From: Streptomyces sp. CB02400
GTDB lineage: Bacteria; Actinomycetota; Actinomycetes; Streptomycetales; Streptomycetaceae
Assembly (NCBI RefSeq): GCF_001905725.1
Contig: NZ_LIWB01000001.1
Coordinates: forward strand, 1,120,881 to 1,184,880
Length of the DNA stretch: 64,000 nt
Direction: 5' to 3'
The translations under genes and the position numbers were made by a program. Below are positions 11,660 to 30,559 of this stretch, piece after piece. Under the pieces are notes generated by a model. That model searched no databases, was not told the DNA's origin, and saw only the letters and a list, made by a program, of their open reading frames with translations. The first letter of the stretch is position 1; the number at the start of each line of letters is the position of its first letter.

Positions 11660-11773
11660 TAATCTCGAGCACATCGTCAACGCGGCCCGACGGGCTTCCG
11701 CTCCACCCCGGTGGAGTCTCGAAGGACACGCCCCCACCCGCACGAGTAACTTCGTGCTGCCTGGGGGAAGTCC
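11660..11773 (+). promoter_or_regulatory. Structured leader A: hairpin that contains the ribosome binding site of the first Schlafen-type gene
   Basis: A −10-like TAATCT (11660-11665) precedes a segment that recurs upstream of the next gene. GCGGCCCGACGGGCTTCC (11682-11699) can form a small GCCC/GGGC hairpin, followed by a CTCCACC/GGTGGAG hairpin found only here. Then comes a two-part stem: outer CCCCCA (11731-11736) with TGGGGG (11762-11767), and inner GCACGA (11740-11745) with TCGTGC (11752-11757). The 3' outer arm, GGGGGA, is the only good Shine-Dalgarno and ends five bases before the TTG start, so folding would hide it. This suggests translational control; the ligand or trigger is unknown. 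Confidence 0.7.
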
Positions 11774-13660
11774 TTGCTGTTCCGCGCGTCCGCGAAAACG
11801 GTCGCCGTCATGGCGCTCGACGGTTCGCTGTTCCTGCACCTCACCGACCAGTTCGTCCACATGCACGGCTACCGGCCCGGCACCTCGGAGGCGCGCTCCT
11901 GGGAGCGCAGCATTCCCGTCCTGGCCGCCGCGCTCAACGACGCCGGTCTGGGCGATGTGGAGATGATGCTCGAGTACGCCCTCCCGCTGAACAGCAAGCG
12001 TGCCGACGTCGTCCTCGCAGGCGTGCATCCCTCCACCGGGGAGCCGTCGTACGTCGTGGTGGAGCTGAAGCAGTGGAGCGAGGTCCTGCCCCACGAGGAC
12101 GATCCCACCCTGTGCCACGTCGAGCGCTACACCCACCCCGTCCTCAATCCCATCGAGCAGGTGCGCCGCTACTGCGACTACCTGGTGAACTTCAACGGAG
12201 CGGTGGCCGAGCACGGGCACCGGGTCAGTGGGGTGGCGTTCCTGCACAACGCCACGGAGTTCGACGTCGTCGGCCTGCGGGAGATCGAGCGCGACGGCCG
12301 CGGACTGCTGTTCACGGGGCAACGCCGTGGCGAATTCCTCGACCACCTCCGTTCGAAGCTGAGCGACAGGCATTCCGGTGTCCGGGCGGCGGACGAACTG
12401 CTCTCGGGCGTCACTGTGCCGTCGAAGCAGCTCATGTCCGTGGCCGCCGAGGAGGTGCGCGAACGCCAGCAGTTCGTGCTGCTCGACGAGCAGCAGGTCG
12501 CCTACCGAATGGTGCTCAACGCGGTGGAGAAGGCCAAGCGCGCCGACCGCAAGGAAGTCGTCGTCGTCACCGGCGGCCCCGGCACCGGCAAGAGCGTGAT
12601 CGCCCTCCAACTGCTCGGTGAGCTGTACCGGCGCGGGATGCCGGCCCTGCACGCCACCGGCTCCCAGTCGTTCACCAAGACGATGAGGAAGGTCGCCGGC
12701 TCCCGTAAGCGTGAGGTGCAGGACCTGTTCAAGTACTTCAACAGCTTCATGACCACCGAGGCGAACAGCCTGGACGTGCTGATCTGCGACGAGGCCCACC
12801 GCATCCGGGAGACATCGGCCAACCGCTATACGCGTGCCGAGCACCGGACCGGCAAGGCTCAGATCGACGAACTCATCGATGTCGCCCATGTGCCCGTCTT
12901 CCTCCTCGACGAGCATCAGGTGGTGCGGCCGGGCGAGATGGGCACCGTGGCCGACATCGAGGCGGCAGCGGCCAAACGGGACATCCCCTGCCACGTCGTC
13001 CCGCTGGAGAGTCAGTTCCGCTGCGGCGGCAGCGACGCCTACCTGCGCTGGGTCGTCCGACTTCTTGGCCTCGAACCCGGCGGTCCGGTCGTCTGGGACC
13101 CCGACGACCGCATGCAACTGCTGGTCGCCGATGGCCCGCAGGAGATGGAAGCCTTCCTCGAGTCCCGCCGGGCGCAGGGTTACGGCGCCCGCATGTCCGC
13201 CGGCTACTGCTGGCGCTGGTCCCCTGAGCCCAAGCCGGGCCACCCGCTCCCGCTGGACGTCGTCATCGGCGACTGGGCCCGCCCGTGGAACCTGCGGGGC
13301 GAACGCTCGGTCTCGGGCGCGCCCCCGGCGGCCCTGTGGGCCACCGATCCGGCCGGTTTCGGACAGGTCGGCTGCGTCTACACCGCTCAGGGCTTCGAGT
13401 ACGACTGGTCCGGAGTCATCATCGGCCCCGACCTGCTGTGGCGCGGCGACCGCTGGGTCACGGACCGAACGGCCTCCCAGGACCCGGTGTTCAAGAAGTC
13501 CACCCCGGACGCCGACGTGGACCGGCTGATCCGCAACACATACAAGGTGCTGCTGACGAGAGGCATGGTCGGCACGGTCGTCTATTCGACGGATGCCGAG
13601 ACACGGGCGAAGTTGCGACAACTCGCGGGGGGTTCGACGCGGGAGCCGGCTCTGGCCTGA
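11774..13660 (+). CDS. Schlafen-group-3 (DUF2075) helicase with PD-(D/E)XK-like N-terminus, copy 1
   Basis: The TTG at 11774 is chosen because GGGGGA sits five bases upstream and the N-terminus aligns with the second copy (MLFRASAK against MLLLRLAA); an ATG at 11810 is the alternative. The protein is 628 aa. Residues ~50-110 hold a restriction-endonuclease-like core (Asp78, then Glu97-Leu-Lys99). After ~230 comes the Schlafen group 3 DNA/RNA helicase domain (PF09848, formerly DUF2075), with Walker A GGPGTGKS at ~267-274, a Walker B containing LICDEAHR, and the late motif YTAQGFEYDW typical of SF1-like helicases. It is expected to move on or unwind nucleic acid and perhaps cut it. The gene is followed directly by a paralogue, and no terminator is seen between them. 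Confidence 0.85.
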   Translation: MLFRASAKTVAVMALDGSLFLHLTDQFVHMHGYRPGTSEARSWERSIPVLAAALNDAGLGDVEMMLEYALPLNSKRADVVLAGVHPSTGEPSYVVVELKQWSEVLPHEDDPTLCHVERYTHPVLNPIEQVRRYCDYLVNFNGAVAEHGHRVSGVAFLHNATEFDVVGLREIERDGRGLLFTGQRRGEFLDHLRSKLSDRHSGVRAADELLSGVTVPSKQLMSVAAEEVRERQQFVLLDEQQVAYRMVLNAVEKAKRADRKEVVVVTGGPGTGKSVIALQLLGELYRRGMPALHATGSQSFTKTMRKVAGSRKREVQDLFKYFNSFMTTEANSLDVLICDEAHRIRETSANRYTRAEHRTGKAQIDELIDVAHVPVFLLDEHQVVRPGEMGTVADIEAAAAKRDIPCHVVPLESQFRCGGSDAYLRWVVRLLGLEPGGPVVWDPDDRMQLLVADGPQEMEAFLESRRAQGYGARMSAGYCWRWSPEPKPGHPLPLDVVIGDWARPWNLRGERSVSGAPPAALWATDPAGFGQVGCVYTAQGFEYDWSGVIIGPDLLWRGDRWVTDRTASQDPVFKKSTPDADVDRLIRNTYKVLLTRGMVGTVVYSTDAETRAKLRQLAGGSTREPALA

Positions 13661-13771
13661 CCGTTCCCACCCATACGGCCGGGTCCTCCCAACTGGCCAT
13701 GATCAAGCCACACGGTTCGCCTGAACGGGCCGATTTCCGCTCGTGATTACCGGGCCGAGCCGGTGCGTGCC

Positions 13772-13864
13772 TAAGATCCCCGATACCGGTTGCGGCCCGA
13801 CGGGCTTCCTGCGTGGACACGCCCCCACCCGCACGAGTCACTCGTGCTCTGGGGGATCCTCCTC
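13772..13864 (+). promoter_or_regulatory. Structured leader B: second copy of the ribosome-binding-site hairpin
   Basis: This has the same order as leader A. A −10-like TAAGAT (13772-13777) comes first, then the identical 18-base GCGGCCCGACGGGCTTCC (13792-13809), and then a 24-base identical block (13815-13838) that opens the stem. The outer stem is CCCCCA (13822-13827) with TGGGGG (13850-13855). The inner stem is GCACGAG (13831-13837) with CTCGTGC (13841-13847), with loop TCA. Between copies the apical loop and the bases between the stems differ while pairing is kept. GGGGGA is the Shine-Dalgarno of the downstream GTG at 13865, eight bases away. Confidence 0.7.
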
Positions 13865-15985
13865 GTGTCCATGCTCCTGCTGCGATTAGCGGCACGGGAC
13901 CTGCTCGCTCTGAACGCACGGCGCCGTCTGGTGCCTCACCTCGCGGCCCGCTGGGTGCACTTCCAACGAGGCGAGTCCTCCGGCGGCGAGCGCTCGGCGT
14001 GGGCGCGCAGTCTCGTCTCGCTGGCGGAAGATTTGGTCGCCGCCGAACGCGGCAACGTCGAGATGATCGTCGAGTGTTCGCCCACCGTGGACGCGTCCGA
14101 AGGGTCGGCGACCACACACGGACAGATCGACGTGGTCCTCGTGGGCAGGCATCCCACGGAAGGGACCCTCTCCGTGCAGCTCGTCGAGCTGAAACAGTGG
14201 TCGTCGGTGACGAGGGTGGAGGCCGCGACGGCCGATCTCGTGTACGTACCGGGGATCGAGGAGCCCGTCACCCACCCCGCCCTGCAGCTCGGTGAGTACC
14301 ACGCACTGTTCACCGGTCCCACCGGCCCGCTGAACGGATTGCAGTTCGAATGCGGCGGATTCGCCTACTTGCACAACGCCACGGACGAGTCCGTCCGGCC
14401 GCTGCTCGGTGTCGACGCACCCACGGGGCCTTACGCCCGCATGTACACGAGCGACACCCGGGCCAGGCTCCTCAAGGATCTGCAGCGCCACTTCACCGAC
14501 GAGGACGACTACTCGGCGGCCGAGTACATCCTGCACCGGATGAACCTCCGGAACACACCGCTGCTCGACGCCATGGTCAAGTCGAACGGTGAGGACACGG
14601 TCTTCACCCTGAGAGGCCGGCAGAAGCAGGTCGCCGACGAGGTGCTCGAGGCTTCGGAACTGATCCTGGACGCCCCGGACCGGGAGGCGCTCGTCCCCCG
14701 TCCGCAGCGTGCGGTCTTCCTGGTCACCGGGGGAGCGGGCACCGGGAAGAGTGCCATCGGACTCCAACTGCGAGCCGATCTTGAAGCCGCCGGCCGAACG
14801 GTGAAGTACGCGAGCGGATCGCGGGCCTTCAACGCCGCCGTCAAGGAGAACGTCGGATACACCGAAACCGAGTTCCGGGAGCGCTTCGCGTACTTCAGCA
14901 GCTTCGTCAACCCGCCTGAGCCACCGCTGGACGTGCTGATCTGCGACGAGGCGCACCGGCTGCGGGACATGTCCAAGAACTGGCGTCTGCCCGCGGAGAA
15001 GCAGGGCACCAAGCCACAGGTGGACGAACTCATCGAGGCGTCCCGCCTGACCGTGTTCTTCCTCGACGGAGCCCAGACCGTGCGCCCGTACGAGGTGGGC
15101 ACGGCGGAGCTCATCGAGGACGCCGCGCAACGGCATGGTGCCGTCTTCCGTCGTTACGGTCTGGTGGAGCAGTACCGGTGCGGAGGCAGTGACGCCTACA
15201 TCCGCTGGGTCCGTGCACTGCTCGGTGTCTCGCCGCAGGAGGCGCACCAGTGGGTCCCGGACGGACTCATGCACATCGAGGTCGTCGACACACCCGACGA
15301 GATGGAGCACATCGTCCGCACCGAGTTCGACGCCGGCGCGACCGCCCGGGTGGTGGCGGGATACTGCTGGCCCTGGAGCAAGCCGGACAAGGGCAAGAAC
15401 CTCGAGAACGATGTGCGCATCGGTGACTGGCACCGTCCGTGGAACGCTTCGAGCGAGTCCTTCTGCGCCAACGGCGAACCACCGTCGAGGATCTGGCCCG
15501 TGCACGACGCCGGTATCGGACAGATCGGCTGTGTCTACACCGCGCAGGGGCTCGAGTGGGACTGGTGCGGGGTGATCATGGGCGCCGACATGGTCTGGCG
15601 CACCGACCGCTGGGTGTTCCAGCGGGGAAGGCAGCGCAAGGACCCGGAGGCCGGGGTGATGCGGGTGGCGAAACCGGGATCGCTCGACCCGAAGGTGCGC
15701 ACGAGCACCCTCGACGACGACGATTTCGCCCGCTGCGTCCGCCACGCCTACCACGTCCTGCTGACCAGGGCGAGCCGGGCCACCGTGCTCTACTCCACGG
15801 ACGAGGAGACTCGGCGCCACCTCAGGGAACTGGTCGGGGAGACCGACGTGCACGGGCTCCGGCCTACCCAGGAGTCCATCCCGCCCGAGCTGAGGATCGC
15901 CCGGCACGGCGGGGGAGCGCGGGGCCGAAGGGCACGGCGGGCGCGGAACAAGGCGAAGCGGAAGAACGAGATGATGTTGTTCTGA
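13865..15985 (+). CDS. Schlafen-group-3 (DUF2075) helicase with PD-(D/E)XK-like N-terminus, copy 2
   Basis: The frame is open further upstream (a TTG at 13790), but that would translate through the leader hairpin. The GTG at 13865, or the ATG at 13871, fits the ribosome binding site and the alignment with copy 1. The protein is ~706 aa. It has the same layout: an N-terminal nuclease-like core with GQIDVVL and VELKQW (Asp ~89, Glu ~108, Lys ~110), then the Schlafen group 3 helicase with Walker A GGAGTGKS near 290, LICDEAHR, and YTAQGLEWDW. The C-terminus is a basic tail rich in Arg and Lys. Codon 8 (13886-13888) is TTA, so translation should need the bldA tRNA in Streptomyces and be favoured late in growth. 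The two copies are clearly paralogous but well diverged, so they are not a recent duplication. Confidence 0.85.
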   Translation: MSMLLLRLAARDLLALNARRRLVPHLAARWVHFQRGESSGGERSAWARSLVSLAEDLVAAERGNVEMIVECSPTVDASEGSATTHGQIDVVLVGRHPTEGTLSVQLVELKQWSSVTRVEAATADLVYVPGIEEPVTHPALQLGEYHALFTGPTGPLNGLQFECGGFAYLHNATDESVRPLLGVDAPTGPYARMYTSDTRARLLKDLQRHFTDEDDYSAAEYILHRMNLRNTPLLDAMVKSNGEDTVFTLRGRQKQVADEVLEASELILDAPDREALVPRPQRAVFLVTGGAGTGKSAIGLQLRADLEAAGRTVKYASGSRAFNAAVKENVGYTETEFRERFAYFSSFVNPPEPPLDVLICDEAHRLRDMSKNWRLPAEKQGTKPQVDELIEASRLTVFFLDGAQTVRPYEVGTAELIEDAAQRHGAVFRRYGLVEQYRCGGSDAYIRWVRALLGVSPQEAHQWVPDGLMHIEVVDTPDEMEHIVRTEFDAGATARVVAGYCWPWSKPDKGKNLENDVRIGDWHRPWNASSESFCANGEPPSRIWPVHDAGIGQIGCVYTAQGLEWDWCGVIMGADMVWRTDRWVFQRGRQRKDPEAGVMRVAKPGSLDPKVRTSTLDDDDFARCVRHAYHVLLTRASRATVLYSTDEETRRHLRELVGETDVHGLRPTQESIPPELRIARHGGGARGRRARRARNKAKRKNEMMLF

Positions 15986-16574: not shown

Positions 16575-16651
16575 TACTATGCAACGTAATGGGTGTTTTA
16601 TCCCGTAGTCCTGTCCTTCACCGCCTCTTCTCATGTCGTAGCCACCCATTA
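16575..16651 (+). promoter_or_regulatory. pglW: Probable pglW promoter and inverted repeat
   Basis: TACTAT (16575-16580) is a good −10 hexamer with no clear −35. Just downstream, TAATGGGTG (16587-16595) and its exact reverse complement CACCCATTA (16643-16651) are separated by 47 bases. The first arm would lie at the expected transcript start, so the pair could form a 5' hairpin or be two half-sites for a regulator. Confidence 0.4.
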
Positions 16652-16717
16652 GGATCTGCACGCAGGGCCCGACCATGGGGAACGGTGGCCCTGGAAGAAC
16701 GACGAGTGGGGACAGGC

Positions 16718-19700
16718 ATGCGGGAAGGCCGGTGGGTCACGGTCACCGAGTCCGAGTTCGAGCACGAACGCCGCGGCCTGGAGGCGATCAGGGAGAAGCT
16801 GCCGGACGGCGACCCCTGGCGGGCCTGGTCGAACTTCACCTTCACCGCGAACACCGGCCACGTCCGGGAGGTCGACCTGCTGGTCGTCGCCCCCGGCGGC
16901 CTGTGCATGATCGAGCTGAAGGACTGGCACGGCTCGGTCACCTCCGAGAACGGTACCTGGGTCCAGACCACCCCCGGCGGCTACCGCCGCACCCACGGCA
17001 ACCCGCTGCACCTGGTCAACCGCAAGGCCAAGGAGCTGGCCGGCCTGCTCGCCCAGCCCGGCGCCAGGCGGGTCTGGGTCGCCGAGGCCGTCTGCTTCAC
17101 CGACAACGGCCTCCGCGTCCGGCTGCCCGCCCACGACCAGAACGGCGTGTACACCGTCGACGAACTGGTCGACATGCTCAAGCAGCCCCCGGCCGACGAG
17201 CGGCGCCGCATCACGGCGATCGGCTCGCGCGAGGTCGCGGCGGCCCTGGCGAACATCGGCATCCGCAAGAGCGACGCGCAGTACAAGGTCGGCCCGTACG
17301 AGCTGGAGCGGAAGTCCTTCGAGTCCGGGCAGACCTGGGCCGACTACCTCGCCCGCCACAGCGACCTGCCCGAGGCCGCACGCGTGCGGATCTACCTCAG
17401 CGAGCGCGGCTCCGACGCCTCCCTGCGCCAGTCCGTGGAGAACGCCGCCCGGCGTGAGGCCGCGGTGCTGGGCCGGTTCAAGCACCCGGGCGTCGTCCAG
17501 CTCAAGCAGTACTTCCCCTCCGGGCACGCCGCCGGCCCCGCGCTGATCTTCGACTACCACCCGGACACGCTGAAGCTGGACGAGTACCTGGTCCAGTACG
17601 GGGAGAAGCTGGACATCCTCGGCCGGATGGCGCTGGTGCGCCAGCTCGCCGAGACGATGCGCTCCGCGCACGCCAGCCGCATCCACCACCGCGCGCTCGC
17701 CGCCCGCTCCGTCCACGTCGTCCCCCGCCCGCGCGGCCGCAAGGGGCAGGCCGTCGGGGAGGAGACCGCCTGGCTCACCCCGCAGCTGCAGATCTCCGAC
17801 TGGCAGATCGCCACCCAGCGCAGCGGCGACTCCTCGCAGGGCCAGGGCATGACCCGGTTCGCGCCGACCGCCCTGTCCGCCATGCACCTGTCCGACGACG
17901 CCGACGCCTACCTCGCCCCGGAACTCACCGCCCTCAGCCCCGACCCGGTCTACCTCGACGTGTACGGGCTCGGCGTCCTCACCTACCTGCTGGTCACCGG
18001 CAAGGCCCCGGCCGCCAGCCAGGCCGAGCTGCTGGCCCGCCTGGAGGCGGGCGAGGGCCTGCGCCCCAGCTCCCTGGTGGACGGGCTCTCCGAGGACGTG
18101 GACGAGCTGGTGCAGGCCGCCACCGCCTACCGTCCCGGCCAGCGCCTCTCCAGCGTCGACGAGTTCCTGGAGCTGCTGGAGGTCGTCGAGGACTCCCTCA
18201 CCGCCCCCGCCGCCGCCCTCGACGGGCACGCGGAGGAGGAGACCGGGGCGAGCGCCGACAAGGACCCGCTGGAGGCCGTTGCCGGCGACGTGCTCGCCGG
18301 CCGGTGGGAGGTCCGCCGCCGCCTCGGCACCGGCTCCACCAGCCGCGCCTTCCTCGTCCGCGACCTGGAGGCGGAGACCCGCAGGACGCGCCCGCTGGCC
18401 GTGCTGAAGGTCGCCCTCTCCGACAGCCGAGGCGAGATCCTCGTCCGCGAGGCCGAGGCCATGGGCCGCCTGCGCCCCCACTCCGGCATCATCCGCCTCG
18501 TCGAGCCCGAGCCGCTGCTCATCGCCGGCCGCACCGTCCTGGCGCTGGAGTACGTCGGCGACGAGCGCGACGACGACGCCCAGGGCGCCGAGGGCGCGGC
18601 CCGCCCGCGCCGCCGCGAGGAGACCGTCGCCCGCCAGCTCCGCGAGCACGGCCGCCTCCCGGTCGACCAGCTGGAGGCGTACGGCGACTATCTCTTCGGC
18701 GCCGTCGACTTCCTCGAGGGCGAGGGCGTCTGGCACCGGGACATCAAGCCCGACAACATCGCCGTCCGCATCCGCCCCAACCGCACCCGCGAGCTGGTCC
18801 TCATCGACTTCTCGCTGGCCGGCTACCCCGCGAAGAACACCGACGCGGGCACCGAGGGCTACCTCGACCCCTTCGTCGACGTCATCACGCGCGGCTCGTA
18901 CGACTCGCACGCCGAGCGGTACGCCGTCGCCGTCACCCTGCACCAGATGGCCTCCGGCGAGCTGCCGAAGTGGGGCGACGGCAGCGTCCTGCCGCGCATG
19001 ACCGACCCGAAGGAGTGGCCGTACCCGACCATCGCGGCCGAGGCCTTCGACCCGGCCGTGCGGGACGGGCTCGTCGCCTTCTTCCAGAAGGCCCTGCACC
19101 GCGACGCGGGCAAGCGGTTCCCCGAGCTGAAGCCGATGCGGGACGCCTGGCGCAAGGTCTTCCTCGACGCCTCGCAGACCGTCCCCTCCAGCCACCGCAC
19201 CCGCCCCACGGCCCCCGCCGACGGGACCACACCCGCCGAGGGCGCCGCCGCGGGGATCGCGGACGCCGAGCCGGAGACCGCCGAGCAGCAGCGCGACCGC
19301 CTCGCCGCCGAGGTCACCCGCGACACCCCGCTGACCGTCTCCGGCCTCACGCCCGCCGCCCAGTCCTTCCTCTACGGCCTGGGCCTCACCACGGTCGGCG
19401 AACTCCTCGACTACAGCCGCCGCAAGCTCGTCAACGCCCCCGGCCTCGGCGCCAAGACCCGCAACGAGATCCAGCAGCGGCAGCGGGAGTGGGGCGAGCG
19501 GCTGCGCGAGATCCCCGTCTCCCCGCTCACGCCGAAGGGCCGGGCGGAGGCGAAGGAGGAGCTGGAACAGCTCACCGCCGCCGAGTCCGCCCTCGTCGGA
19601 CAGCTCGCGACGGGCGAGTCGGCGGGCGCGCTGTCCGCCCGCACCCTGCGCTCGGTCAGCCTCGACACCCTCGCCACCGTCTTTGTGCCGGCCGTCAACA

Positions 19701-21394
19701 ACAACGGCTCCAACCGCAACAAGGCGGAGGTGGTGCGGCTGCTGCTGCGCCTGCCCGACGAGCACGGCGTCCTGCCGGACATCGGCGTCTGGCCGAAGCA
19801 GAAGGACGTGGCCGACGCGCTCGGCCTCAGCCACGGCCGTATCCCGCAGATGCTCAAGGACGAGCGCAAGCGCTGGAAGGCGGAGCCCGCCGTCCGGGCG
19901 CTGCGGGACGAGATCATCGATCTGCTGGAGAGCATGGGCCGCGTCGCCTCCGCCGTGGAGATCGCCGACGCCCTCGCCGTCCGCCGCGGCACGCACCTCG
20001 CCGGGCGCGAACAGCGGCGCGCGATGGCCCTGGCGGCGGTGCGGGCCGTCGTCGAGGTCGAGCAACTGGTGCCGCAGGAGGCCGAGTTCCAGCACCAGCC
20101 GAACCGCAAGGCGACCGACGAGTCGCTGGGCGCCGGCCTGCTCGCCCTCGACGTCCGCGAGAACGACGCTCCGGACACCCCGACCGCGCCCGGCCTGCTC
20201 GACTACGCGACCCGCCTCGGCAGGACGGCCGGTCGGCTGGCCGAGCTGGACACCCTGCCGACGGCCGCGACCGTCCTGGCCGAACTGGGCGCGCTGACGG
20301 TCCCGCCCGGCGCTGTCGACTGGGACGAGCGGCGCATGGTGGAACTGGCCGCCGCCGCGTCGGTGAATGCCGCCGCCACTCCGCGCCTGGAGATCTACCC
20401 GCGCGACCTGTCGCTCGTCCGCGCGCTGCGCCTCACCCAGGCCGGCCTCGTCCGCTGGATCCCGGGCGTTCCGGAGGGTCGGCAGCCCGGCCTGACCGGT
20501 GAGGACGTACACGAGCGGGTGCGTGCCCGCTTCCCCGAGCTGGGCGTCCCGGACGGGCGCGGCGGCACGACCCACGAACTGCCGACCGGCGGCCCGCTCA
20601 CCAAGGCGCTGCGCGACGCGGGCTTCGAACTGTCGCTTAGCATGCGCGAGGACACGGGCACGCTGCGCTACCTGCCGACGCGGGTGGAGGACGCCTCCAG
20701 CTACCTCACGACGGGCGCGTGGCGGCAGTCGACGCGCACGGGCACGGTGACGCGGTACGCGGACGACCCACAGCTCGCGGGCGCGGTGCGCGCGGAGGAA
20801 CGGCTGCTCGCCTCGGCCCACCGGGACGGGTACCGGGTGCTGACCGTACGGCAGCAGCTCGTGCGGGACGCGGTACGGGAATTGAGCGCCGAACGGCTGG
20901 GCGCGCGGGCGGTATCGGTGACCGAGCTGTTCCTGGAGGCCCTGCACGGTCAGGTCACGCCAGGCACCAAGCCGACTTGGGAGACCCTGCTCAAGGCGGA
21001 CGCCGCCGAGCCGGGCTCGAAGGGCGCGGTGCGGTTCGCGGAGTACGCGCGGACGGCATGGGGCTCGGTCGAGCCCCGGATCGCCGAGCTGCTGGGCAAC
21101 GGCGGTGGTGGCGGTGCGGGTCCGGTCCTGCTAACGGAGGCCGGGGTGTTCGCCCGGTACGACGCGATGGGCGTCCTGGACCGGCTGGCATCGGCGGCCC
21201 GGCGGGGCGGGCGGGGGCTGTGGCTCCTGGTCCCGCAGAACGACCCCTCGCGCGAGCCCCGGCTCGGGCAGGCGGCCGTGCCGTACCAGGCCGGCCTGGG
21301 GGAGTGGATCCAGCTTCCGGACACGTGGGTGGGCAACGCCCATCGCGGGTCCGGCGAGGTTGTGGCAAGTGGTGTCGAGGGAGACGCGAAGTGA
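16718..21394 (+). CDS. pglW: BREX type 2 serine/threonine kinase PglW
   Basis: The ATG at 16718 is preferred because GGGGACAGG lies just upstream; an in-frame ATG at 16589 would add 43 residues with no similarity to the family. The protein is 1558 aa. The N-terminus is a NERD-type nuclease-related domain (about residues 30-110: REVDLLVV, IELKDW). A first kinase-like domain (~200-500) is degenerate, with HRAL in place of HRD. A second kinase domain has VLK at ~563, the catalytic HRDIKPDN near 672-679, and IDFS where DFG is usual. A helix-hairpin-helix/alpha-CTD-like segment (~878-928) and a long C-terminal region follow. PglW is the kinase of the Pgl/BREX type 2 phage exclusion system. Its stop overlaps the pglX GTG, so the two are coupled. 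Confidence 0.93.
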   Translation: MREGRWVTVTESEFEHERRGLEAIREKLPDGDPWRAWSNFTFTANTGHVREVDLLVVAPGGLCMIELKDWHGSVTSENGTWVQTTPGGYRRTHGNPLHLVNRKAKELAGLLAQPGARRVWVAEAVCFTDNGLRVRLPAHDQNGVYTVDELVDMLKQPPADERRRITAIGSREVAAALANIGIRKSDAQYKVGPYELERKSFESGQTWADYLARHSDLPEAARVRIYLSERGSDASLRQSVENAARREAAVLGRFKHPGVVQLKQYFPSGHAAGPALIFDYHPDTLKLDEYLVQYGEKLDILGRMALVRQLAETMRSAHASRIHHRALAARSVHVVPRPRGRKGQAVGEETAWLTPQLQISDWQIATQRSGDSSQGQGMTRFAPTALSAMHLSDDADAYLAPELTALSPDPVYLDVYGLGVLTYLLVTGKAPAASQAELLARLEAGEGLRPSSLVDGLSEDVDELVQAATAYRPGQRLSSVDEFLELLEVVEDSLTAPAAALDGHAEEETGASADKDPLEAVAGDVLAGRWEVRRRLGTGSTSRAFLVRDLEAETRRTRPLAVLKVALSDSRGEILVREAEAMGRLRPHSGIIRLVEPEPLLIAGRTVLALEYVGDERDDDAQGAEGAARPRRREETVARQLREHGRLPVDQLEAYGDYLFGAVDFLEGEGVWHRDIKPDNIAVRIRPNRTRELVLIDFSLAGYPAKNTDAGTEGYLDPFVDVITRGSYDSHAERYAVAVTLHQMASGELPKWGDGSVLPRMTDPKEWPYPTIAAEAFDPAVRDGLVAFFQKALHRDAGKRFPELKPMRDAWRKVFLDASQTVPSSHRTRPTAPADGTTPAEGAAAGIADAEPETAEQQRDRLAAEVTRDTPLTVSGLTPAAQSFLYGLGLTTVGELLDYSRRKLVNAPGLGAKTRNEIQQRQREWGERLREIPVSPLTPKGRAEAKEELEQLTAAESALVGQLATGESAGALSARTLRSVSLDTLATVFVPAVNNNGSNRNKAEVVRLLLRLPDEHGVLPDIGVWPKQKDVADALGLSHGRIPQMLKDERKRWKAEPAVRALRDEIIDLLESMGRVASAVEIADALAVRRGTHLAGREQRRAMALAAVRAVVEVEQLVPQEAEFQHQPNRKATDESLGAGLLALDVRENDAPDTPTAPGLLDYATRLGRTAGRLAELDTLPTAATVLAELGALTVPPGAVDWDERRMVELAAAASVNAAATPRLEIYPRDLSLVRALRLTQAGLVRWIPGVPEGRQPGLTGEDVHERVRARFPELGVPDGRGGTTHELPTGGPLTKALRDAGFELSLSMREDTGTLRYLPTRVEDASSYLTTGAWRQSTRTGTVTRYADDPQLAGAVRAEERLLASAHRDGYRVLTVRQQLVRDAVRELSAERLGARAVSVTELFLEALHGQVTPGTKPTWETLLKADAAEPGSKGAVRFAEYARTAWGSVEPRIAELLGNGGGGGAGPVLLTEAGVFARYDAMGVLDRLASAARRGGRGLWLLVPQNDPSREPRLGQAAVPYQAGLGEWIQLPDTWVGNAHRGSGEVVASGVEGDAK

Positions 21395-24300
21395 TCGACC
21401 GCAAGGCTCTGTTGGACGACCTGAAGCAGCAGGTCAAGGCGGTCGAGGCCGACCTCGACAAGCAGGTGAAGGCGCTCGGTGAGGTCGGTGCGCGGCTGCG
21501 GGCCGAGTACGACCAGGCGCGCAAGCTGGGGCGTACGGCGGCGACGTGGACCTCGTGGCTGGACGAGCGGGTCACGCAGGTCGCGGTGGCGTGGGTGCTG
21601 GGGACTGTCTTCGTGCGGTTCTGCGAGGACAACCGGCTGATCCCGGAGCCGTACCTGACGGGGCCGGACGGTGACCGGCGCGAGCTGGCGGAGTCGCGGT
21701 ACGACGCGTACGTGGAGTCGGACGAGGACCCGACGTACCGGGGGTGGCTGGAGAAGGCGTTCGACGAGCTGGGTCAGGGGCAGGCGGGGCGGCTGCTGTT
21801 CGATAAGCGGCACAACCCGCTGTATCAGGTGCCGCTGTCGCACGACGGTGCGCGGGAGCTGGTCGAGTTCTGGCGTCAGCGCGACGAGGCGGGCGTCCTC
21901 GTCCACGACTTCACCGACCCGCTGAACGAGGACGGCACGGAGGGGTGGGACACGCGGTTCCTGGGGGACCTGTACCAGGACCTGAGTGAGGCCGCCCGGA
22001 AGACGTACGCGCTGCTCCAGACGCCGGAGTTCGTGGAGGAGTTCATCCTTGACCGGACGATGAACCCGGCGGTGCGGGAGTTCGGGTACGAGGAACTGAA
22101 GATGATCGACCCTACGTGTGGGTCGGGGCACTTTGTGCTGGGGGCGTTTCGGCGGCTGGTGCGGTTGTGGGCGGAGGGGCATCCGGGGAAGGACGTGCAC
22201 GAGCGGGTGCGGGCGGCGCTGGAAGCCGTGCATGGCGTGGACATCAATCCGTTCGCGGTGGCCATTGCGCGGTTTCGGTTGCTCGTTGCGGCTATGGCAG
22301 CGAGCGACGTTACTAGCATGGCAGAAGCTGGGAAGTACGAGTGGCCCATTCGACTTGCGGTGGGGGACTCGTTGATCAAGCACCGGTATCGGCAGGGGAA
22401 CCTGTTCGACGGCTCTGAAGAGGTGGGGGCGGACGAACTCGCGGACTTCAAGTATGCGACCGAGGACGTTCACGAGCACCCGGACATCCTGCTGCAGGGA
22501 CGTTACCACGTGGTGGTGGGAAATCCGCCGTATATCACGGTGAAGGATAAGGGGCTGAATCAGCTTTATCGTGATCTATACGATGCGTGCGCTGGGAAGT
22601 ATGCACTTTCGGTTCCGTTCGCTCAGCGATTTTTCGAGCTGGCCAGGCGAGGAACTGCTGATGGGTGCGGCTACGGAATAGTTGGACAGATCACGGCAAA
22701 TTCCTTCATGAAGCGAGAGTTCGGTGCAAAGCTGATCGAGAGTTACTTTGCGCACGATGTGGAATTGACCGAGGTCATCGACACGTCCGGAGCTTACATC
22801 CCGGGTCACGGGACCCCGACAGTGATCCTGGTCGGCAAGCGACGGGAGGGAAGCCGGCGCGCGGCGACTATTCGTACGGTTCGCAGCGTACAAGGGGAGC
22901 CGGGGGTGCCAGAGAACCCTGCAAAGGGTTTGGTCTGGCGAGCAATTATCGATCAGATCGACACTCCCGGATCCGTCGGCGAGTGGGTGTCGGTAAGCGA
23001 TATGGAGCGGGCGCGGTACTTTGGTGGGCATCCTTGGGTGCTTGCTGCAGGTGGCCGGGAAATGCTCGAGCAGCTCAAAGAAGCAGAATCTCAGAAGCTT
23101 AAATCGATTGTCGATCCGATCGGATTCTCTGTAATTACGGGCGATGATGATCAGTTCGTGTATTCGCGGCCGCTTGCCCGCTGGATTCCTGAGCGCAATG
23201 TGACCCTCCGACCGTTCCTCGTAGGTGACGGAATTCGTGACTGGGGAAGCTCTTCTGGTGCTGATGCGATCTATCCGCTTGATGCCTCCGCCGCTGAGCG
23301 CCATGTACTTGAAGGGAGGTATCTATGGGCGCGACGGCAGCTACTTCGCACCGGCCTCATGTTCTCGAAGACCAAGGAGCAGCGTGGAATCCCATGGTCC
23401 GACTACACGTTCTCTAGGAAGGATCGGATTGAAGCTCCCCATTTGATCGCTTTTTCTTTCATGGCCACGCACAACCACTTCGTTCTAGAGCGCAGGGGAA
23501 GTGTGCTTAACCACTCGGCTCCGGTCATCAAGCTGCGGGAGAGTAGTGCGGAAGAGGATTACCTAGGTCTGCTCGGGTTGCTCAATAGCTCCACTGCTGG
23601 ATTCTGGATCAAGCAAGTGAGCCATAGTAAGGGTAATGCGACGGCTGCCAGTGGCATGCCTGATCAGCCATGGTCATGGAACTTTGAGATCACCGGCACA
23701 AAGTTGGAGGAGTTTCCGCTTCCCGTTGATCGCCCTGTCGATCTCGCTGCTGCACTCGATGTCCTCGCTCAGAAACTCAGTGCTGTCAGTCCGTGGCGTG
23801 TTCTTGCCGAATCCACGCCCACCACTGATGTCCTCCGCAAGGCTCGTCAGACTTGGGAGTCCACTCGAGCGCGCATGATTGCCCTCCAGGAGGAACTGGA
23901 CTGGCAAGTTTACTCAATCTATGGCTTGCACTCTGAGGATCTACGTACTCCAGGGTCCGACGTGCCCGGAATTGCCGCAGGGGAGCGCGCGTTTGAAATC
24001 ATTCTCGCACGGAAGATTGATAACGGCGAGGTGAACACAAAGTGGTTCACCCACCATGGCAGAAAAACCGTCACGGAAATCCCATCCCATTGGCCCGCTC
24101 CCTATCGCGAGATCGTGCAGAAGCGAATCGACGCCATCGAATCGAACCACGCTATCGGGATGGTCGAGCGGCCCGAGTACAAGCGCCGCTGGGCCACGGA
24201 GGGCTGGGACGCGCTCCAAGAGAAGGCTCTGCGCTCCTGGCTGCTCGACCGCATGGAGAACCGCGATTTGTGGTTCGACGAGAACGGTCAGCCCACCATC

Positions 24301-24987
24301 CTCACCCTGACCCGTCTCACCGACGCGCTTTCCCGTGACGAGGACTTCGTGTCGGTCGCCAACCTCTACGCGCCCCGTAAGGAACTCGCGAAGGCCGTCG
24401 CTGAGCTGATCACCGACGAGCACGTGCCGTTCCTCTCCGCTCTGCGCTACAAGCCCTCCGGGATGAAGAAGCGCGCCGACTGGGAAGAGGTCTGGGACCT
24501 CCAGCGCAAGGAGGACGCCGCGCCCGACGAGCCGTCTAAGCGGAAGATCCGGGACTCCATCCCCGTGCCGCCGAAGTACACCTCGGCCGACTTCCTCCGC
24601 CCGTCCTACTGGCGAGCGCGCGGCAAGCTCGACGTGCCCAAGGAGCGGTTCATCTCCTACGGGCAGACCAATGCTGCCACCCCCGAGCTGTATGGGTGGG
24701 CCGGCTGGGATCACAAGGAGCAGGCGCAGGCGCTGGCGACGTACTTCACCAACGCCGCGCTGTCCGCCGAGGAGATCACACCGTTCCTCGCCGGCCTGCT
24801 GGAACTGCAGCCGTGGCTGTACCAGTGGCACAACGAGTTCGACATGTTCTACAGCGGCTCCCCGGCGGACTTCTTCGCCGGTTACCGCCAGCAGAAGCAG
24901 GGCGAGCACGGACTCACGGACGACGACCTCCGTGGCTGGCGTCCTCCGGCCGCGACCCGAGGTCGTCGCGCAGCAGCGAAGCAGTAG
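21391..24987 (+). CDS. pglX: BREX DNA adenine-specific methyltransferase PglX
   Basis: The GTG at 21391 overlaps the pglW stop (GTGA). The protein is 1198 aa, the normal size for PglX. It has a coiled N-terminus, the S-adenosylmethionine-binding motif DPTCGSGH at 240-247, and the catalytic NPPY at 378-381 of an N6-adenine methyltransferase; the rest is target-recognition and C-terminal regions. It should mark host DNA at the BREX site and is needed for exclusion of phage. Base composition is striking: the ends are typical high-GC Streptomyces, but the middle (about 22500-24000) is much lower, only 45% G+C in 23101-23160. Rare codons such as CTA and AGG occur there. This suggests that the recognition part was exchanged horizontally. 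I see no homopolymeric G-tract longer than five bases. Confidence 0.95.
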   Translation: MIDRKALLDDLKQQVKAVEADLDKQVKALGEVGARLRAEYDQARKLGRTAATWTSWLDERVTQVAVAWVLGTVFVRFCEDNRLIPEPYLTGPDGDRRELAESRYDAYVESDEDPTYRGWLEKAFDELGQGQAGRLLFDKRHNPLYQVPLSHDGARELVEFWRQRDEAGVLVHDFTDPLNEDGTEGWDTRFLGDLYQDLSEAARKTYALLQTPEFVEEFILDRTMNPAVREFGYEELKMIDPTCGSGHFVLGAFRRLVRLWAEGHPGKDVHERVRAALEAVHGVDINPFAVAIARFRLLVAAMAASDVTSMAEAGKYEWPIRLAVGDSLIKHRYRQGNLFDGSEEVGADELADFKYATEDVHEHPDILLQGRYHVVVGNPPYITVKDKGLNQLYRDLYDACAGKYALSVPFAQRFFELARRGTADGCGYGIVGQITANSFMKREFGAKLIESYFAHDVELTEVIDTSGAYIPGHGTPTVILVGKRREGSRRAATIRTVRSVQGEPGVPENPAKGLVWRAIIDQIDTPGSVGEWVSVSDMERARYFGGHPWVLAAGGREMLEQLKEAESQKLKSIVDPIGFSVITGDDDQFVYSRPLARWIPERNVTLRPFLVGDGIRDWGSSSGADAIYPLDASAAERHVLEGRYLWARRQLLRTGLMFSKTKEQRGIPWSDYTFSRKDRIEAPHLIAFSFMATHNHFVLERRGSVLNHSAPVIKLRESSAEEDYLGLLGLLNSSTAGFWIKQVSHSKGNATAASGMPDQPWSWNFEITGTKLEEFPLPVDRPVDLAAALDVLAQKLSAVSPWRVLAESTPTTDVLRKARQTWESTRARMIALQEELDWQVYSIYGLHSEDLRTPGSDVPGIAAGERAFEIILARKIDNGEVNTKWFTHHGRKTVTEIPSHWPAPYREIVQKRIDAIESNHAIGMVERPEYKRRWATEGWDALQEKALRSWLLDRMENRDLWFDENGQPTILTLTRLTDALSRDEDFVSVANLYAPRKELAKAVAELITDEHVPFLSALRYKPSGMKKRADWEEVWDLQRKEDAAPDEPSKRKIRDSIPVPPKYTSADFLRPSYWRARGKLDVPKERFISYGQTNAATPELYGWAGWDHKEQAQALATYFTNAALSAEEITPFLAGLLELQPWLYQWHNEFDMFYSGSPADFFAGYRQQKQGEHGLTDDDLRGWRPPAATRGRRAAAKQ

Positions 24988-25507
24988 CCAGGAGCAGATC
25001 GACATCCGTCGGTTCAAGGGCCACCCGGTGCGTGAGCGGGTGGCCCTTTGTCTGCGTGTGCAGCTCCGCCCATACGGTCTTTCTTGGGGCGGCCTCGCGA
25101 GGGCTGGCGCCCCAGTCGTCCGCGAGGGCGGCGACCAGAAGCAGGCCCCGGCCGGACTCGGACAGCGAGTCGGTCGCCGAAGGGCTGGCGGCCGAGGGCT
25201 GTTTCTCATCGCGGGTGTCGGTCACCTCGATACGGAAGGTGCCCTCGGCCAGGGTGAGGTGGACGTGGAAGTCCCGGCCGGGGACGTGGCCGTGGCGGAC
25301 GGCGTTGGCGGTGAGTTCCGCCGTGATGAGGGTGAGCGTCTCATTGACCGTGGTCGCGTACGGGTGGCCCCAGTCGTTCAGGCGGTGCGAGACGAGTCTG
25401 CGAGCGAGGCGGGCACCGCGCGGCGTTGACGTGAAGCGCATGGTGAACTCGTGTTCGGGCGCGGGGTGCTGCTGCATATGCCCATTCGGGGGAGTTGCTG
25501 ACTTCAT
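24914..25507 (-). CDS. RsbW/SpoIIAB-like ATP-binding regulatory protein
   Basis: The ATG at 25507 gives 197 aa. The HATPase_c motifs are visible: N-box ELTANAVRHG, G1-like VTDTRDEKQP, and G2-like SGRGLLLVAALADDWG. Proteins of this anti-sigma-factor-kinase-like group are the usual divergent partner of WhiJ-type helix-turn-helix plus DUF397 pairs in Streptomyces, as here. Its 3' end overlaps the 3' end of pglX by 74 bases on the opposite strand, and the pglX terminator lies inside it. The C-terminal ~45 residues extend beyond the usual fold. It probably acts in a regulatory switch together with the next two genes. The kinase target is unknown. Confidence 0.85.
   Translation of the reverse strand: MKSATPPNGHMQQHPAPEHEFTMRFTSTPRGARLARRLVSHRLNDWGHPYATTVNETLTLITAELTANAVRHGHVPGRDFHVHLTLAEGTFRIEVTDTRDEKQPSAASPSATDSLSESGRGLLLVAALADDWGASPREAAPRKTVWAELHTQTKGHPLTHRVALEPTDVDLLLATASLLRDDLGSRPEDASHGGRRP
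25016..25048 (+). terminator. Terminator after pglX
   Basis: AAGGGCCACCCG (25016-25027) pairs exactly with CGGGTGGCCCTT (25037-25048) around a nine-base loop, and a short T run follows. It lies within the antisense coding sequence of the ATP-binding protein gene. Confidence 0.75.
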
Positions 25508-25509
25508 AG

Positions 25510-25543
25510 GGTCAACGGTGTCGGACTCTGCGTAGCGTTGACC
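25510..25543. promoter_or_regulatory. Inverted repeat between divergent regulatory genes
   Basis: GGTCAACG (25510-25517) and CGTTGACC (25536-25543) are perfect reverse complements 18 bases apart. They sit just upstream of the ATP-binding protein start and in the divergent gap with the helix-turn-helix gene. The right arm contains TTGACC, a −35-like hexamer. This is a likely operator for the WhiJ-like regulator. Confidence 0.45.
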
Positions 25544-25669
25544 AGGAGCGATGCGCTGACGGGTACGGGCTGTACACGCCGTCGGCGCGCTTGTACCTGG
25601 TGTTGGGCGTGACCGGTTCCCAGGCCCCGAAGTTGGCTGACTGGGCGGTTGTACGAGAGGAGCTGCGGC

Positions 25670-26503
25670 GTGGACGACGAGGTTCAGCAGCCGGAAGAAT
25701 ATGAGGTCGGGACGGGCATGCTGTGCGTGTTCGGGAGGCAGTTGAAGCTGTTCCGGGAGCGGGCGGGCCTGGACCGCGCGGGGCTCGGGTCCCTGACCGG
25801 GTACTCGGCCTCGACGATTGCGTCGTTCGAGCAGGCGAGACGTATTCCGCAGCCCAGGTTCATCGACCAGGCGGATGAAGTGCTGGGTGCAGGTGGGGTG
25901 TTGAGCGCGAGCAAGGAGGAGGTGGCTCGGGCTCAGTATCCGGCGTTCTTCCGGGACGCGGCACGGTTGGAGGCGGAGGCCGTCGAAGTGCATGTGTACG
26001 CGAACCAGGCGGTGCCCGGACTCCTACAGACGGAGGAGTATGCGCGGGCCATTTTTATGATGATGCGGCCACCTATGCGCGACGAACTGATCGAACAGAG
26101 GGTGGGCGCCCGCCTGGACCGACAAGAGATCTTGTCCAGCCATGACGCGCTGCTCGCCAGCTTTGTCATGGATGAGGCAGTGTTGAGACGCCCCATCGGA
26201 GGTCGAGGCATCCTGCGTGGCCAGCTTGAGCAGATTCTCCTGATGGGGCAGCGTCGGAACGTCGAGATTCAGGTGATGCCGCTTGACCGCGAGGAGAACG
26301 CGGGCATGGCTGGTCCCTTCACCTTGATCGAAACGAAGGAAGGGCGGAGGATCGCGTACGCCGAGGTACAGAACATCAGTCGCCTGCAAACGGAGCGGGA
26401 CCGCGTCCGTGCGCTGGAGGCCAAGTACGGGATCATCCGGGCGCAGGCCCTGACTCCTCGTGAATCATTGGCGTACGTAGAGAAGTTGCTGGGAGAGTCA
26501 TGA
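25670..26503 (+). CDS. WhiJ-like helix-turn-helix regulator (XRE + DUF5753)
   Basis: The GTG at 25670 is chosen because GAGAGGAGC lies about 7 bases upstream. The protein is 277 aa. An XRE-type helix-turn-helix (residues ~20-75, with LTGYSASTIASFEQARR) is followed by a DUF5753 domain to the C-terminus (VPGLLQTEEYARA, VQVMPL-like segment, LQTERDRVRALE). This is the standard form of the many WhiJ paralogues in Streptomyces, which control development or secondary metabolism with a small DUF397 partner. Its stop overlaps the ATG of the DUF397 gene. It probably binds the inverted repeat in the divergent promoter. Whether it also controls BREX genes is unknown. Confidence 0.9.
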   Translation: MDDEVQQPEEYEVGTGMLCVFGRQLKLFRERAGLDRAGLGSLTGYSASTIASFEQARRIPQPRFIDQADEVLGAGGVLSASKEEVARAQYPAFFRDAARLEAEAVEVHVYANQAVPGLLQTEEYARAIFMMMRPPMRDELIEQRVGARLDRQEILSSHDALLASFVMDEAVLRRPIGGRGILRGQLEQILLMGQRRNVEIQVMPLDREENAGMAGPFTLIETKEGRRIAYAEVQNISRLQTERDRVRALEAKYGIIRAQALTPRESLAYVEKLLGES

Positions 26504-26703
26504 ACGCGCACGTACATCAACCACAGATAGACCAGTTGGTATGGCGCAAGAGCAGCTATAGCAGCGAGGAAGGCGGCGAATGCGTTGAGGTCGCCGCACG
26601 CCCCGCCACCGTCCACGTCCGCGACTCGAAGGACACAACCCGCGCCGCACTCGCCGTAGAAGCCACGGCATGGGCCGCCTTCGTGGAGTTCGCGGCACGC
26701 TGA
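26500..26703 (+). CDS. DUF397 small partner protein
   Basis: The 67-aa product starts at the ATG (26500) that overlaps the upstream stop. It has the DUF397 hallmarks: WRKSSYS, then GGECVEVA, VHVRDSKD, and a final AWAAFVEFA. Such proteins pair with WhiJ-like regulators and are thought to act against or together with them. A strong hairpin follows. Confidence 0.92.
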   Translation: MNAHVHQPQIDQLVWRKSSYSSEEGGECVEVAARPATVHVRDSKDTTRAALAVEATAWAAFVEFAAR

Positions 26704-26720
26704 CAGAGGTGGCGCCGATC

Positions 26721-26762
26721 GCAGGGCCCTCCGGCAAGCATGTGCTTGCCGGAGGGCCCTGC
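26721..26762 (+). terminator. Perfect 20-bp hairpin terminator
   Basis: Arms 26721-26740 and 26743-26762 are exact reverse complements separated by TG. The hairpin lies 17 bases after the DUF397 stop and ends the regulator pair. Confidence 0.8.
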
Positions 26763-26948
26763 GCATCCCACCCCTACGGCACACCTTCAGCAGACCCGAC
26801 GCCTCGCTCGCCCGCGGTCGCCTTCCCGGGCGGCGATCCGCATCGCACAGGAAGCCGACCCTCACGCCACCGCCACTCTCGTAACGAGGTCTCAACGAAG
26901 CTGATCCATGCTGACCCTCGCAACTCGGAGGCACTGTAAGTTCCTGCC

Positions 26949-27827
26949 ATGAAGCAGGGTAAAGAGGTCGAGAACCCCGAGTCGCGTTTCTTCGCGGTGC
27001 TGCTGGCGGCGGCAAAGCTCCCCGGTGTGCGGATCAACAGGGAGGCGTACCTCCGCAGTGCGCTCGCTCGCCACTGCTCCGAGGAAGAGATCCGACGAGC
27101 GATAGAGGAGACTCCCGCTGCTGCGGGCATCGCTGTTGACCTCCTCGACAAGGTCGCCAACGACTCCATCCGCTACGAAACCGCCAAAGTCAGCGCTCTC
27201 TCGGCCGCAGCCGGGATACCCGGCATCTTCGCCCTGCCTGCCACCGTGCCCGCCGACCTGGCCCAGTACGTCGGCCACATGCTGCGCATCGCGCAGAAGC
27301 TCGCCTATCTCTATAGCTGGCCCGACCTGTTTGACGAGGAGGGCGAGGGCGTCGATGACGCGACGATGGGCGTGCTCACGCTGTTCTTCGGCGTGATGTT
27401 CGGTACCCAGTCGGCGAACGCCGCCGTGGGCAAGGTCGCCGGGATGATGTCGAAGCAGGTCGCGAAGAAGCTGCCCCAGAAGGCGCTCACCAAGGGTGTC
27501 ATCTACCCGATCGTGAAGAAGTCCGCGGCTTACCTCGGCGTCCAGATGACCAAGCAGTCCTTCGCGAAGGGCGTCTCCAAGGCCATCCCCGTCATCGGGG
27601 CCGTCGTGTCCGGCGGGCTGACTCTCTCGACCTACCTTCCGATGGCCAAGAGACTCAAGAAGCACCTCGCCGGCCTGCCACTGGCGGACCCCTCGCACCG
27701 AGTGATGGAGGAGGGGGACGTCGTGGAGGGCGAAGTCGTGGAAGAACACGAAGCGTTCGCCTCAGCGGACGCCGAACTGCACGCCCCGGACATTACTGCC
27801 GTCAAGCTGGAGGACCCCAGGCTCTGA
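26949..27827 (+). CDS. EcsC-like protein
   Basis: The ATG at 26949 gives 292 aa; GGAG lies ~20 bases upstream, so the ribosome binding site is weak or distant. The sequence AAAGIPGIFALPATVPADLAQYVGH and the following QKLAYLYSWPDLF-like segment are typical of EcsC-family proteins. Two moderately hydrophobic stretches, LFFGVMFGT and a Gly-rich AIPVIGAVVSGGLTL, may dip into the membrane. The C-terminal ~50 residues are acidic with repeated Glu-Val pairs. The biochemical role of the family is not known. The gene stands alone between terminators, upstream of a broken regulator on the other strand. Confidence 0.6.
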   Translation: MKQGKEVENPESRFFAVLLAAAKLPGVRINREAYLRSALARHCSEEEIRRAIEETPAAAGIAVDLLDKVANDSIRYETAKVSALSAAAGIPGIFALPATVPADLAQYVGHMLRIAQKLAYLYSWPDLFDEEGEGVDDATMGVLTLFFGVMFGTQSANAAVGKVAGMMSKQVAKKLPQKALTKGVIYPIVKKSAAYLGVQMTKQSFAKGVSKAIPVIGAVVSGGLTLSTYLPMAKRLKKHLAGLPLADPSHRVMEEGDVVEGEVVEEHEAFASADAELHAPDITAVKLEDPRL

Positions 27828-27845
27828 CGCCGCGGAAGCCCTCCT

Positions 27846-27870
27846 GGCCGCCCGACTCAAGGGGGCGGCC
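27846..27870 (+). terminator. Terminator after the EcsC-like gene
   Basis: GGCCGCCC (27846-27853) pairs with GGGCGGCC (27863-27870). A TTCGGTCTTC tail follows. Confidence 0.6.
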
Positions 27871-27909
27871 TTCGGTCTTCGGCGGAGGTGCGGGCCGGGT
27901 TCGCCGGCG

Positions 27910-28263
27910 CTACGGCTGCTCGTGATGTTCTGCCCAGGACACACGCCCGCAGCGACACCACCGTGGGTTCAGGGAGCGGCGGGCCGATGCGATGACGCTG
28001 TGGGCGTCAGCCCCGTACACCGCCGACTCGCTGAGTGTCTTCCAGACCTTCTTGTACAAAGTGATGTTGTCGGTGTCGTCCAACCACAGTTCGGCGTGCC
28101 AGTCCTCGGCGACGACCAGCCGGTCGTCGAGCACCCAGAAGCCGTTGGCAGGCACGATCTTGACGGGTGCCGTGAAGGGGATGACAGCCAGCTCGACCGT
28201 GTCCATGCCGATCATGCCGTTGAGGCGGTCGCTCTGTCCGGCTTCCTGGATCTGATGCCCGAC
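27910..28263 (-). pseudogene. Remnant of a WhiJ-like DUF5753 regulator
   Basis: The translation from about 28263 to the stop at 27910 matches the C-terminal half of DUF5753. It includes VELAVIPFTAPVKIVPANGF, FWVLDDRLVVAEDWHAEL, LYKKVWKTLSESAVYGADAH and a final SVIASARRSL. No helix-turn-helix is present upstream; the frame instead continues into unrelated low-quality sequence. The N-terminal two thirds has therefore been lost. It may be a relic of a second WhiJ-like cassette at this site. Confidence 0.6.
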
Positions 28264-28613
28264 CCGCGAGGCGTCCGCGGTCGCCGAAGACCCCTGACCG
28301 CCCTCGGTCTCACCGGATGAATCCGGACGGATCTCGATCGTGGCGAGAGGCCCTGGGTGGTACCGGGAAGTTGTTTCAGCCTTGCGGGCTTCGACGGCAG
28401 GGCCGGCTGTGCGGACTGCTGGTGAAGGCGCCACCTGGGACAGGAAACCGACTGCCACACAGGCACAATGACGACTCGTCACGCGGCAAAGCATGCCTGT
28501 GCGAATCCGGATCACTGACCGGAAATCACCCTCTCACGATCCGATCACAGATGTAAGAATGTCTGTTCGATTACCGTCCCGTGCAATGGGGCCGAATCAC
28601 AGGGGGTGGGAGA

Positions 28614-29711: not shown

Positions 29712-29720
29712 GAGGACTCC

Positions 29721-30122: not shown

Positions 30123-30253
30123 GGTGAGGCGTGGAAATGGGCTTCGCCCGGCCCGCGCCTCCCTGCCACGGTTCCCCCACGGAGCGCGCCAAGCCGACCT
30201 CCACAACGACGCCGGAACCTGTCCCGGCGCGCGCTGACCGATGAGTTGATGCG

Positions 30254-30283
30254 AAGCCCCGGGGAGAGTGCCCCGGGGCTTTT
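30254..30283 (+). terminator. Intrinsic terminator
   Basis: AAGCCCCGGGG (30254-30264) and CCCCGGGGCTT (30271-30281) form an 11-bp stem around AGAGTG, followed by TTTT. It ends the protease-lipoprotein operon. Confidence 0.85.
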
Positions 30284-30559
30284 CGCTGTGCGGCGTGCAT
30301 CTTTCTCACCCGCACTCACCGCTGGACGCGGTGGAGCCCTGCCGGAAACGCTGCTGGAGGAAGGACCGGGTGGTCGAGCTCGACACCGAGAAGTCCTGGC
30401 GGTCGGACGGCGGTGAAGGCGCGATCCCCTGTGTGGTCAGCCGTGTCATTACACCGCGTAAGGCATACGTCAGGCGTAGGGAGTGCTCCCCCTGTAGGCG
30501 GATGGAGGTCGTTTCGACAGTTGATGTCGCGCTGCTGCGGTCGATGCGAGGGTCGGTGC
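30284..30559. other. Intergenic region without a supported gene
   Basis: Open frames exist here but their composition does not look coding. Near 30452-30482 there are three spaced CGTNNGG words (CGTAAGGC, CGTCAGGC, CGTAGGG), a possible regulator site upstream of the membrane protein gene. Confidence 0.35.

Follow-up and report, generated by a model that had tools for sequence, protein, structure and literature searches.

Where their control is known, genes for phage defence are mostly regulated by protein repressors or at the level of the finished protein, and autoregulatory mRNA leaders are known from ribosomal-protein operons. In Streptomyces, the dauA motif is an orphan riboswitch candidate (PMC11109978). 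The main text of that 50-genome survey of ncRNAs, which covers S. avermitilis, is without DUF2075 or Schlafen (PMC11109978), and a 2026 survey of BREX names Schlafen RNases and no riboswitch or leader (PMC12839542). Our literature search, which covered a minority of subscription papers and preprints, returned no paper joining a riboswitch to DUF2075 and nothing on an RNA of the kind described below.

The window, a 64,000-nt stretch of Streptomyces sp. CB02400 DNA, contains two tandem Schlafen-type genes, each preceded by a copy of the same leader. The elements of the locus are as follows.

11660..11665, + strand: −10-like hexamer TAATCT of copy 1 (from sequence; position kept in other copies).
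11682..11741, + strand: aptamer-like domain of copy 1 (RNAalifold consensus, compensatory changes).
11682-11685/11738-11741 and 11692-11695/11730-11733, + strand: P1 and P2 of copy 1 (RNAalifold consensus, compensatory changes).
11697-11699/11724-11726, + strand: P2b of copy 1, with the variable tip at 11700-11723 (RNAalifold consensus, compensatory changes).
11722..11775, + strand: predicted sequestering hairpin P3 of copy 1 (folding, P3 covariation).
Within it, + strand: P3 outer stem AAGGAC/GTCCTT, and GCCCCCA 11730-11736 with TGGGGG 11762-11767 (folding).
11740-11745/11752-11757, + strand: P3 inner stem GCACGA/TCGTGC of copy 1 (folding).
11763..11768, + strand: Shine-Dalgarno (SD) GGGGGA of gene 1 (from sequence, 5 nt before TTG 11774).
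11774..13660, + strand: gene 1, starting at TTG, 628 aa, an N-terminal PD-(D/E)XK-type nuclease motif and an SLFN-g3 helicase (PF09848 E 1e-93; motif; structural model).
13772..13777, + strand: −10-like hexamer TAAGAT of copy 2 (from sequence; position kept in other copies).
13792..13832, + strand: aptamer-like domain of copy 2 (RNAalifold consensus, compensatory changes).
13792-13795/13829-13832, 13802-13805/13821-13824 and 13807-13809/13815-13817, + strand: P1, P2 and P2b of copy 2.
13815..13870, + strand: predicted sequestering hairpin P3 of copy 2, its outer stem GGACACG/CGTGTCC spanning the start codon (folding).
13851..13856, + strand: SD GGGGGA of gene 2 (from sequence, 8 nt before GTG 13865).
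13865..15985, + strand: gene 2, starting at GTG, 706 aa, a paralogue in the family of gene 1 (PF09848 E 2.6e-95).
16589..38745, + strand: BREX type 2 genes pglW (16589), pglX (20719), pglY (31784) and pglZ (35824), the setting outside the element (NCBIfam).

The preliminary description had reported paired leaders with an SD buried in a stem, and its details were reproduced. An identical 18-mer, GCGGCCCGACGGGCTTCC, occupies 11682-11699 in copy 1 and 13792-13809 in copy 2, and a second identical block of 24 bases, GGACACGCCCCCACCCGCACGAGT, lies at 11724-11747 and 13815-13838. The inner stems and loops agreed with the earlier account, as did the 3′ arm TGGGGGA (11762-11768, 5 nt 5′ of TTG 11774; 13850-13856, 8 nt 5′ of GTG 13865) and the −10-like hexamers, which end 16 nt (TAATCT, copy 1) and 14 nt (TAAGAT, copy 2) 5′ of the 18-mer. 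Across the 8.9 Mb genome these two copies were the sole significant leader matches (second copy E 3e-9), and their hairpins gave folding z-scores of −4.4 and −5.3. Among 207 copies at other loci, 180 have a TAnnnT hexamer in a wider interval around the same place (~30 expected); because its end falls mostly 12-17 nt upstream of the first leader nucleotide (G0), the element would lie near the 5′ end of the transcript, whose start is predicted ~10 nt upstream. An Rfam search, which the preliminary description had proposed, was run with 4227 models at gathering cut-offs and matched no family in the window, and a permissive search of 11600-13900 returned nothing overlapping the leaders.

Genes 1 and 2 scored 315 and 320 bits against the SLFN-g3 helicase PF09848, compared with a Pfam gathering cut-off of 24. 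The N-terminal part of both proteins carries the conserved residues E67, D78 and E97-x-K99, which we take, from the motif, to be the PD-(D/E)XK nuclease pattern. An AlphaFold2 model of gene 1 (mean pLDDT 91) resembles RecD2 and SLFN11 among solved structures. The profile of the PADLOC candidate PDC-S41 is matched by 53 of the 54 downstream proteins of leader loci, but the match is partial (the best stretch spans 75 residues in gene 1) and PDC-S41 is itself a candidate whose function is putative. The gene pair is flanked on one side by a DUF4041/T5orf172 gene and on the other by pglW/pglX/pglY/pglZ of BREX type 2 (Pgl), directly upstream of pglW. The nuclease-helicase is not a core BREX gene, however; pgl genes were present within the few kb examined at ~20 of 106 leader-carrying loci, and most leader loci were without them in that interval. 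Likeness to candidate PDC-S41 and adjacency to BREX are the two observations that make the family a candidate for anti-phage defence. Upstream of the T5orf172 gene, at 3488-9562 (+), the window encodes a 2024-aa protein with no Pfam, NCBIfam or PADLOC match.

The leader proved to be widespread. Within the window's genus, BLAST with the copy-1 leader found matches in 38 of 150 genomes, and a covariance model built from 51 copies (R1) was positive in 96 of 393. In the class, R1 was positive in 42 of 395 genomes (25 of 137 genera), the weakest of these matches being uncertain. Three other orders were searched with a second model (R2), built from 63 diverse copies with its structure restricted to P3 to avoid bias toward P1/P2; it matched 19 of 166, 30 of 131 and 29 of 160 genomes, two of the weakest matches being chance. 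In total the leader occurs in >50 actinobacterial genera besides the window's own, among them Herbidospora, Nonomuraea, Actinomadura, Kitasatospora, Knoellia, Janibacter, Ornithinimicrobium, Serinicoccus and Phytoactinopolyspora. Overall ~2000 genomes were searched, many repeatedly, and the model E-values are rough. A phylum-level genome sample yielded no copy outside the class, and exact sequence patterns found no leader in IMG/VR. Marginal model matches at loci L286, L287, L333 and L338 look like chance and were rejected.

Broken or cut-off copies aside, the same ORF family lies 3′ of the leader. PF09848 was detected in 53 of 54 scanned downstream proteins, and the lone miss is probably L282, where the wrong frame was used (22% identity to the rest). 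In the reverse direction, nearly all close homologues in a sample of the class carry the leader (exceptions L313 and L316), and distant homologues (L317, L318, plasmids, Hymenobacter) were without it. Like an autoregulatory leader, the element is exclusive to the genes of one family, with one possible partial exception at L259:926-1010 (−). Here a P1/P2-like element without a clear P3 precedes a 315-aa ORF that has no Pfam match, appears EVE-like by eye and is divergent from the SLFN leader on the same contig; it may be either a remnant or the mark of a second kind of client gene.

Several individual loci show variation in the arrangement. The array at L071:7418-12752 comprises three family members with one leader apiece, two of them very divergent; the third protein (388 aa, no Pfam match) keeps the nuclease part and has a degenerate helicase. 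L319 (MT836681.1) is a 9-kb sequence obtained from human faeces, deposited as unverified under the name 'Bacteriophage sp.'; at 2419-4354 it carries the leader with a 58%-identical gene, and it may be a bacterial fragment or a mobile copy. On the Hymenobacter plasmid L323 (NZ_CP114769.1, 898-4884), two DUF2075 genes likewise stand in tandem but have no copy of the leader, thus tandem pairs extend beyond the range of the RNA. Leaders at L135, L178, L164, L203, L050 and L052 precede broken, shortened or fused gene copies, which suggests frequent loss.

Positions within the leader were numbered from G0 (11682 in copy 1), such that the second block begins at 71 (11724). Pairing between the 5′ block and the front half of the hairpin creates an aptamer-like domain. 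In it, P1 (GCGG/CCGC) is separated by a conserved internal loop from P2 (GGGC-U-UCC/GGA-CAY-GCCC), whose tip is variable. The RNAalifold consensus of 63 diverse copies placed P1 at 0-3/85-88, P2 at 10-12/78-80 and P2b at 15-17/71-73, with double compensatory changes at five pairs. Over P1, P2 and P2b, 96.6% of cells were paired, and 11 cells held double changes compared with 1.7 ± 1.3 in shuffles. An alternative combining P3 with a hairpin inside the 5′ block (H1, GCCC-GAC-GGGC) was weaker than P1/P2 on the same alignment, partly because MAFFT misplaced the 3′ arm of gene-2-type copies. H1 fits Streptomyces-type copies; it is broken in divergent ones (GCGGUACCGAC, GCGGAUCGAC), is absent from the consensus, and was rejected.

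For pair-change analysis, 219 copies were parsed by sequence anchors. U80 was always found opposite A10 (nine copies) or G10 (four copies), thus P2 pairing is kept. L153, L238, L255 and L259 additionally have A in place of G at the P3 partner, position 115, giving a triple change at 10/80/115, and L274 has a triple change at 11/79/116; in these cases the shared base was altered together with both its P2 and its P3 partner. The A11-U79 pair recurs in L331, found later in another family. P1 varies as U3-G85 and A0-U88, and P2b has been swapped for quite different helices in L150, L269, L273 and L282-L284. On the protein tree, canonical double changes were observed in 11 of 16 proposed pairs versus 26 of 636 other column pairs (Fisher p 1.5e-11, a guide only, as column pairs are not independent). 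A model that includes P1/P2 (R3) outscored the P3-only R2 in 47 of 60 held-out copies (mean +2.2 bits). No pair reached significance when the MAFFT alignment was put through an APC-corrected G-test under a homogeneous-rate null, and the top pairs fell within the 3′ arm, where gene-1- and gene-2-type copies are misaligned. Such single-pair tests are modest because the core barely varies. Taken together, compensatory changes support P1, P2 and P3 alike, and the leader contains, as riboswitches do, a conserved 5′-UTR domain. The conservation that the preliminary description would have examined is thus present in many genera, together with compensatory changes.

P2 and P3 vie for one nearly invariant strand, GGACAYGCCCCCA, whose partners are either GGGC-U-UCC (P2/P2b) or the SD and start region (P3). 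When the 5′ domain was folded alone, P1/P2 formed in 190 of 195 unique copies; when the full leader was folded, P3 formed in 181 of 194 copies, with a mean SD pairing probability of 0.99. The structured, conserved and SD-sequestering leader proposed earlier for both genes is therefore borne out by folding and by compensatory changes over many genera. In six copies examined singly the calculated OFF fold lay 8-30 kcal/mol below the ON fold, so switching would need to be co-transcriptional or strongly assisted. The calculated OFF folds of the window hairpins are very stable (−28 kcal/mol and below), which bears on the idea of an RNA thermometer. Pairing of the start-site region with the tip and positions 71-76 was stronger within a leader than when these were taken from other leaders (−9.25 versus −7.96 ± 0.17 kcal/mol; 0 of 2000 permutations, a comparison that shared ancestry can inflate), thus occlusion of the start site also seems to be conserved. 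On these calculations, the expression platform and the aptamer-like fold are mutually exclusive, as in a riboswitch.

These results support a model in which the leader is a two-state cis-regulatory RNA controlling translation of one defence-associated nuclease-helicase family, to which we assign a probability of roughly 0.72, counting autoregulation by the encoded protein as one form of the switch. The best reading is a default-off translational switch, laid out like a translational riboswitch. The first 40-100 nt of the nascent transcript would fold into P1/P2, as folding and covariation suggest; once the rest is transcribed, GGACAYGCCCCCA could abandon P2 for the SD and start codon region and so form P3, whose greater calculated stability would set the default to OFF. 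If a signal stabilised P1/P2, or kept P3 from forming, the SD would be released and translation turned ON, with one switch per tandem gene. The 5′ block would then be the antisequestor (aptamer-like) half; this upstream switching domain is new and goes beyond the preliminary description, whose proposal that translation is kept off until a signal opens the fold appears structurally well supported. A predicted phage-defence enzyme would probably be silenced in this way until a signal arrives.

The signal could be a small molecule, an RNA or a protein, in the last case perhaps the enzyme that the mRNA encodes, and the exclusive tie to one protein family leans toward that protein or toward a signal specific to the system. 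The nuclease-helicase or its tandem partner may bind the leader, stabilise one fold and limit its own level, which would be the same switch with a protein as ligand. We consider this a serious prospect at less than even odds: the element precedes this protein family only, each paralogue of a tandem or array has its own copy, and a helicase-like family with folds resembling SLFN11 and RecD2 may well bind nucleic acid, but feedback repression alone needs no conserved antisequestor that mimics the SD region. More speculatively, the leader could represent a new riboswitch class that senses an infection-linked molecule (a nucleotide, alarmone or phage product) and switches on translation of the defence nuclease-helicase; if true, innate immunity would be gated by an RNA sensor within the effector's own mRNA. 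Invariant nucleotides that stay unpaired in either fold are few, chiefly CGAC, and would offer little to a classical small-molecule pocket.

The hairpin might instead passively hold translation of a toxic enzyme low, P1/P2 being a mere folding intermediate, and the OFF fold was indeed far more stable than the ON fold in all copies tested. We regard this as unlikely, since P1 and P2 are conserved and compensated, triple changes tie P2 to P3, and a mere throttle has no need for an 18-nt 5′ block. A host or phage RNA that base-pairs into the leader and frees the SD would be in keeping with a switching strand nearly invariant between genera, but double pairing already accounts for that invariance, leaving the idea a long shot. 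Some copies have ATG, GTG or TTG directly 5′ of CGGCCC, as if the 5′ block were a short ORF and ribosomes translating it set the hairpin open or closed. Such attenuation is highly improbable: many copies have ACG or CAG in the place of the start codon, and tip lengths range from 2 to 65 nt and are spread over the three frames (93/72/54), so that no conserved short ORF runs through the leader.

If the two-state switch is correct, its significance lies in a single RNA fold, kept over many genera of actinobacteria and present in a separate copy at each tandem paralogue, that appears to decide translation of a nuclease-helicase. Whatever stabilises the fold is likely to be what triggers this family or the step by which it limits itself, such that what Schlafen-type systems sense becomes testable on an RNA of ~100 nt.

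Compared with the leaders of ribosomal-protein operons, the element is alike in serving one gene family and in its predicted action on the start of translation, and unlike them in that its client is not a ribosomal protein and each paralogue has its own copy; binding by the protein is hypothetical here. With translational riboswitches and the dauA motif it shares a compact 5′-UTR fold, mutually exclusive aptamer-like and sequestering stems, and an SD in the 3′ arm. While the clients of those systems are metabolic or transport genes, this leader serves one defence-associated nuclease-helicase family, and its sequence and fold match no Rfam family; we class it as a new family of RNAs of a known kind whose client gene is unusual.
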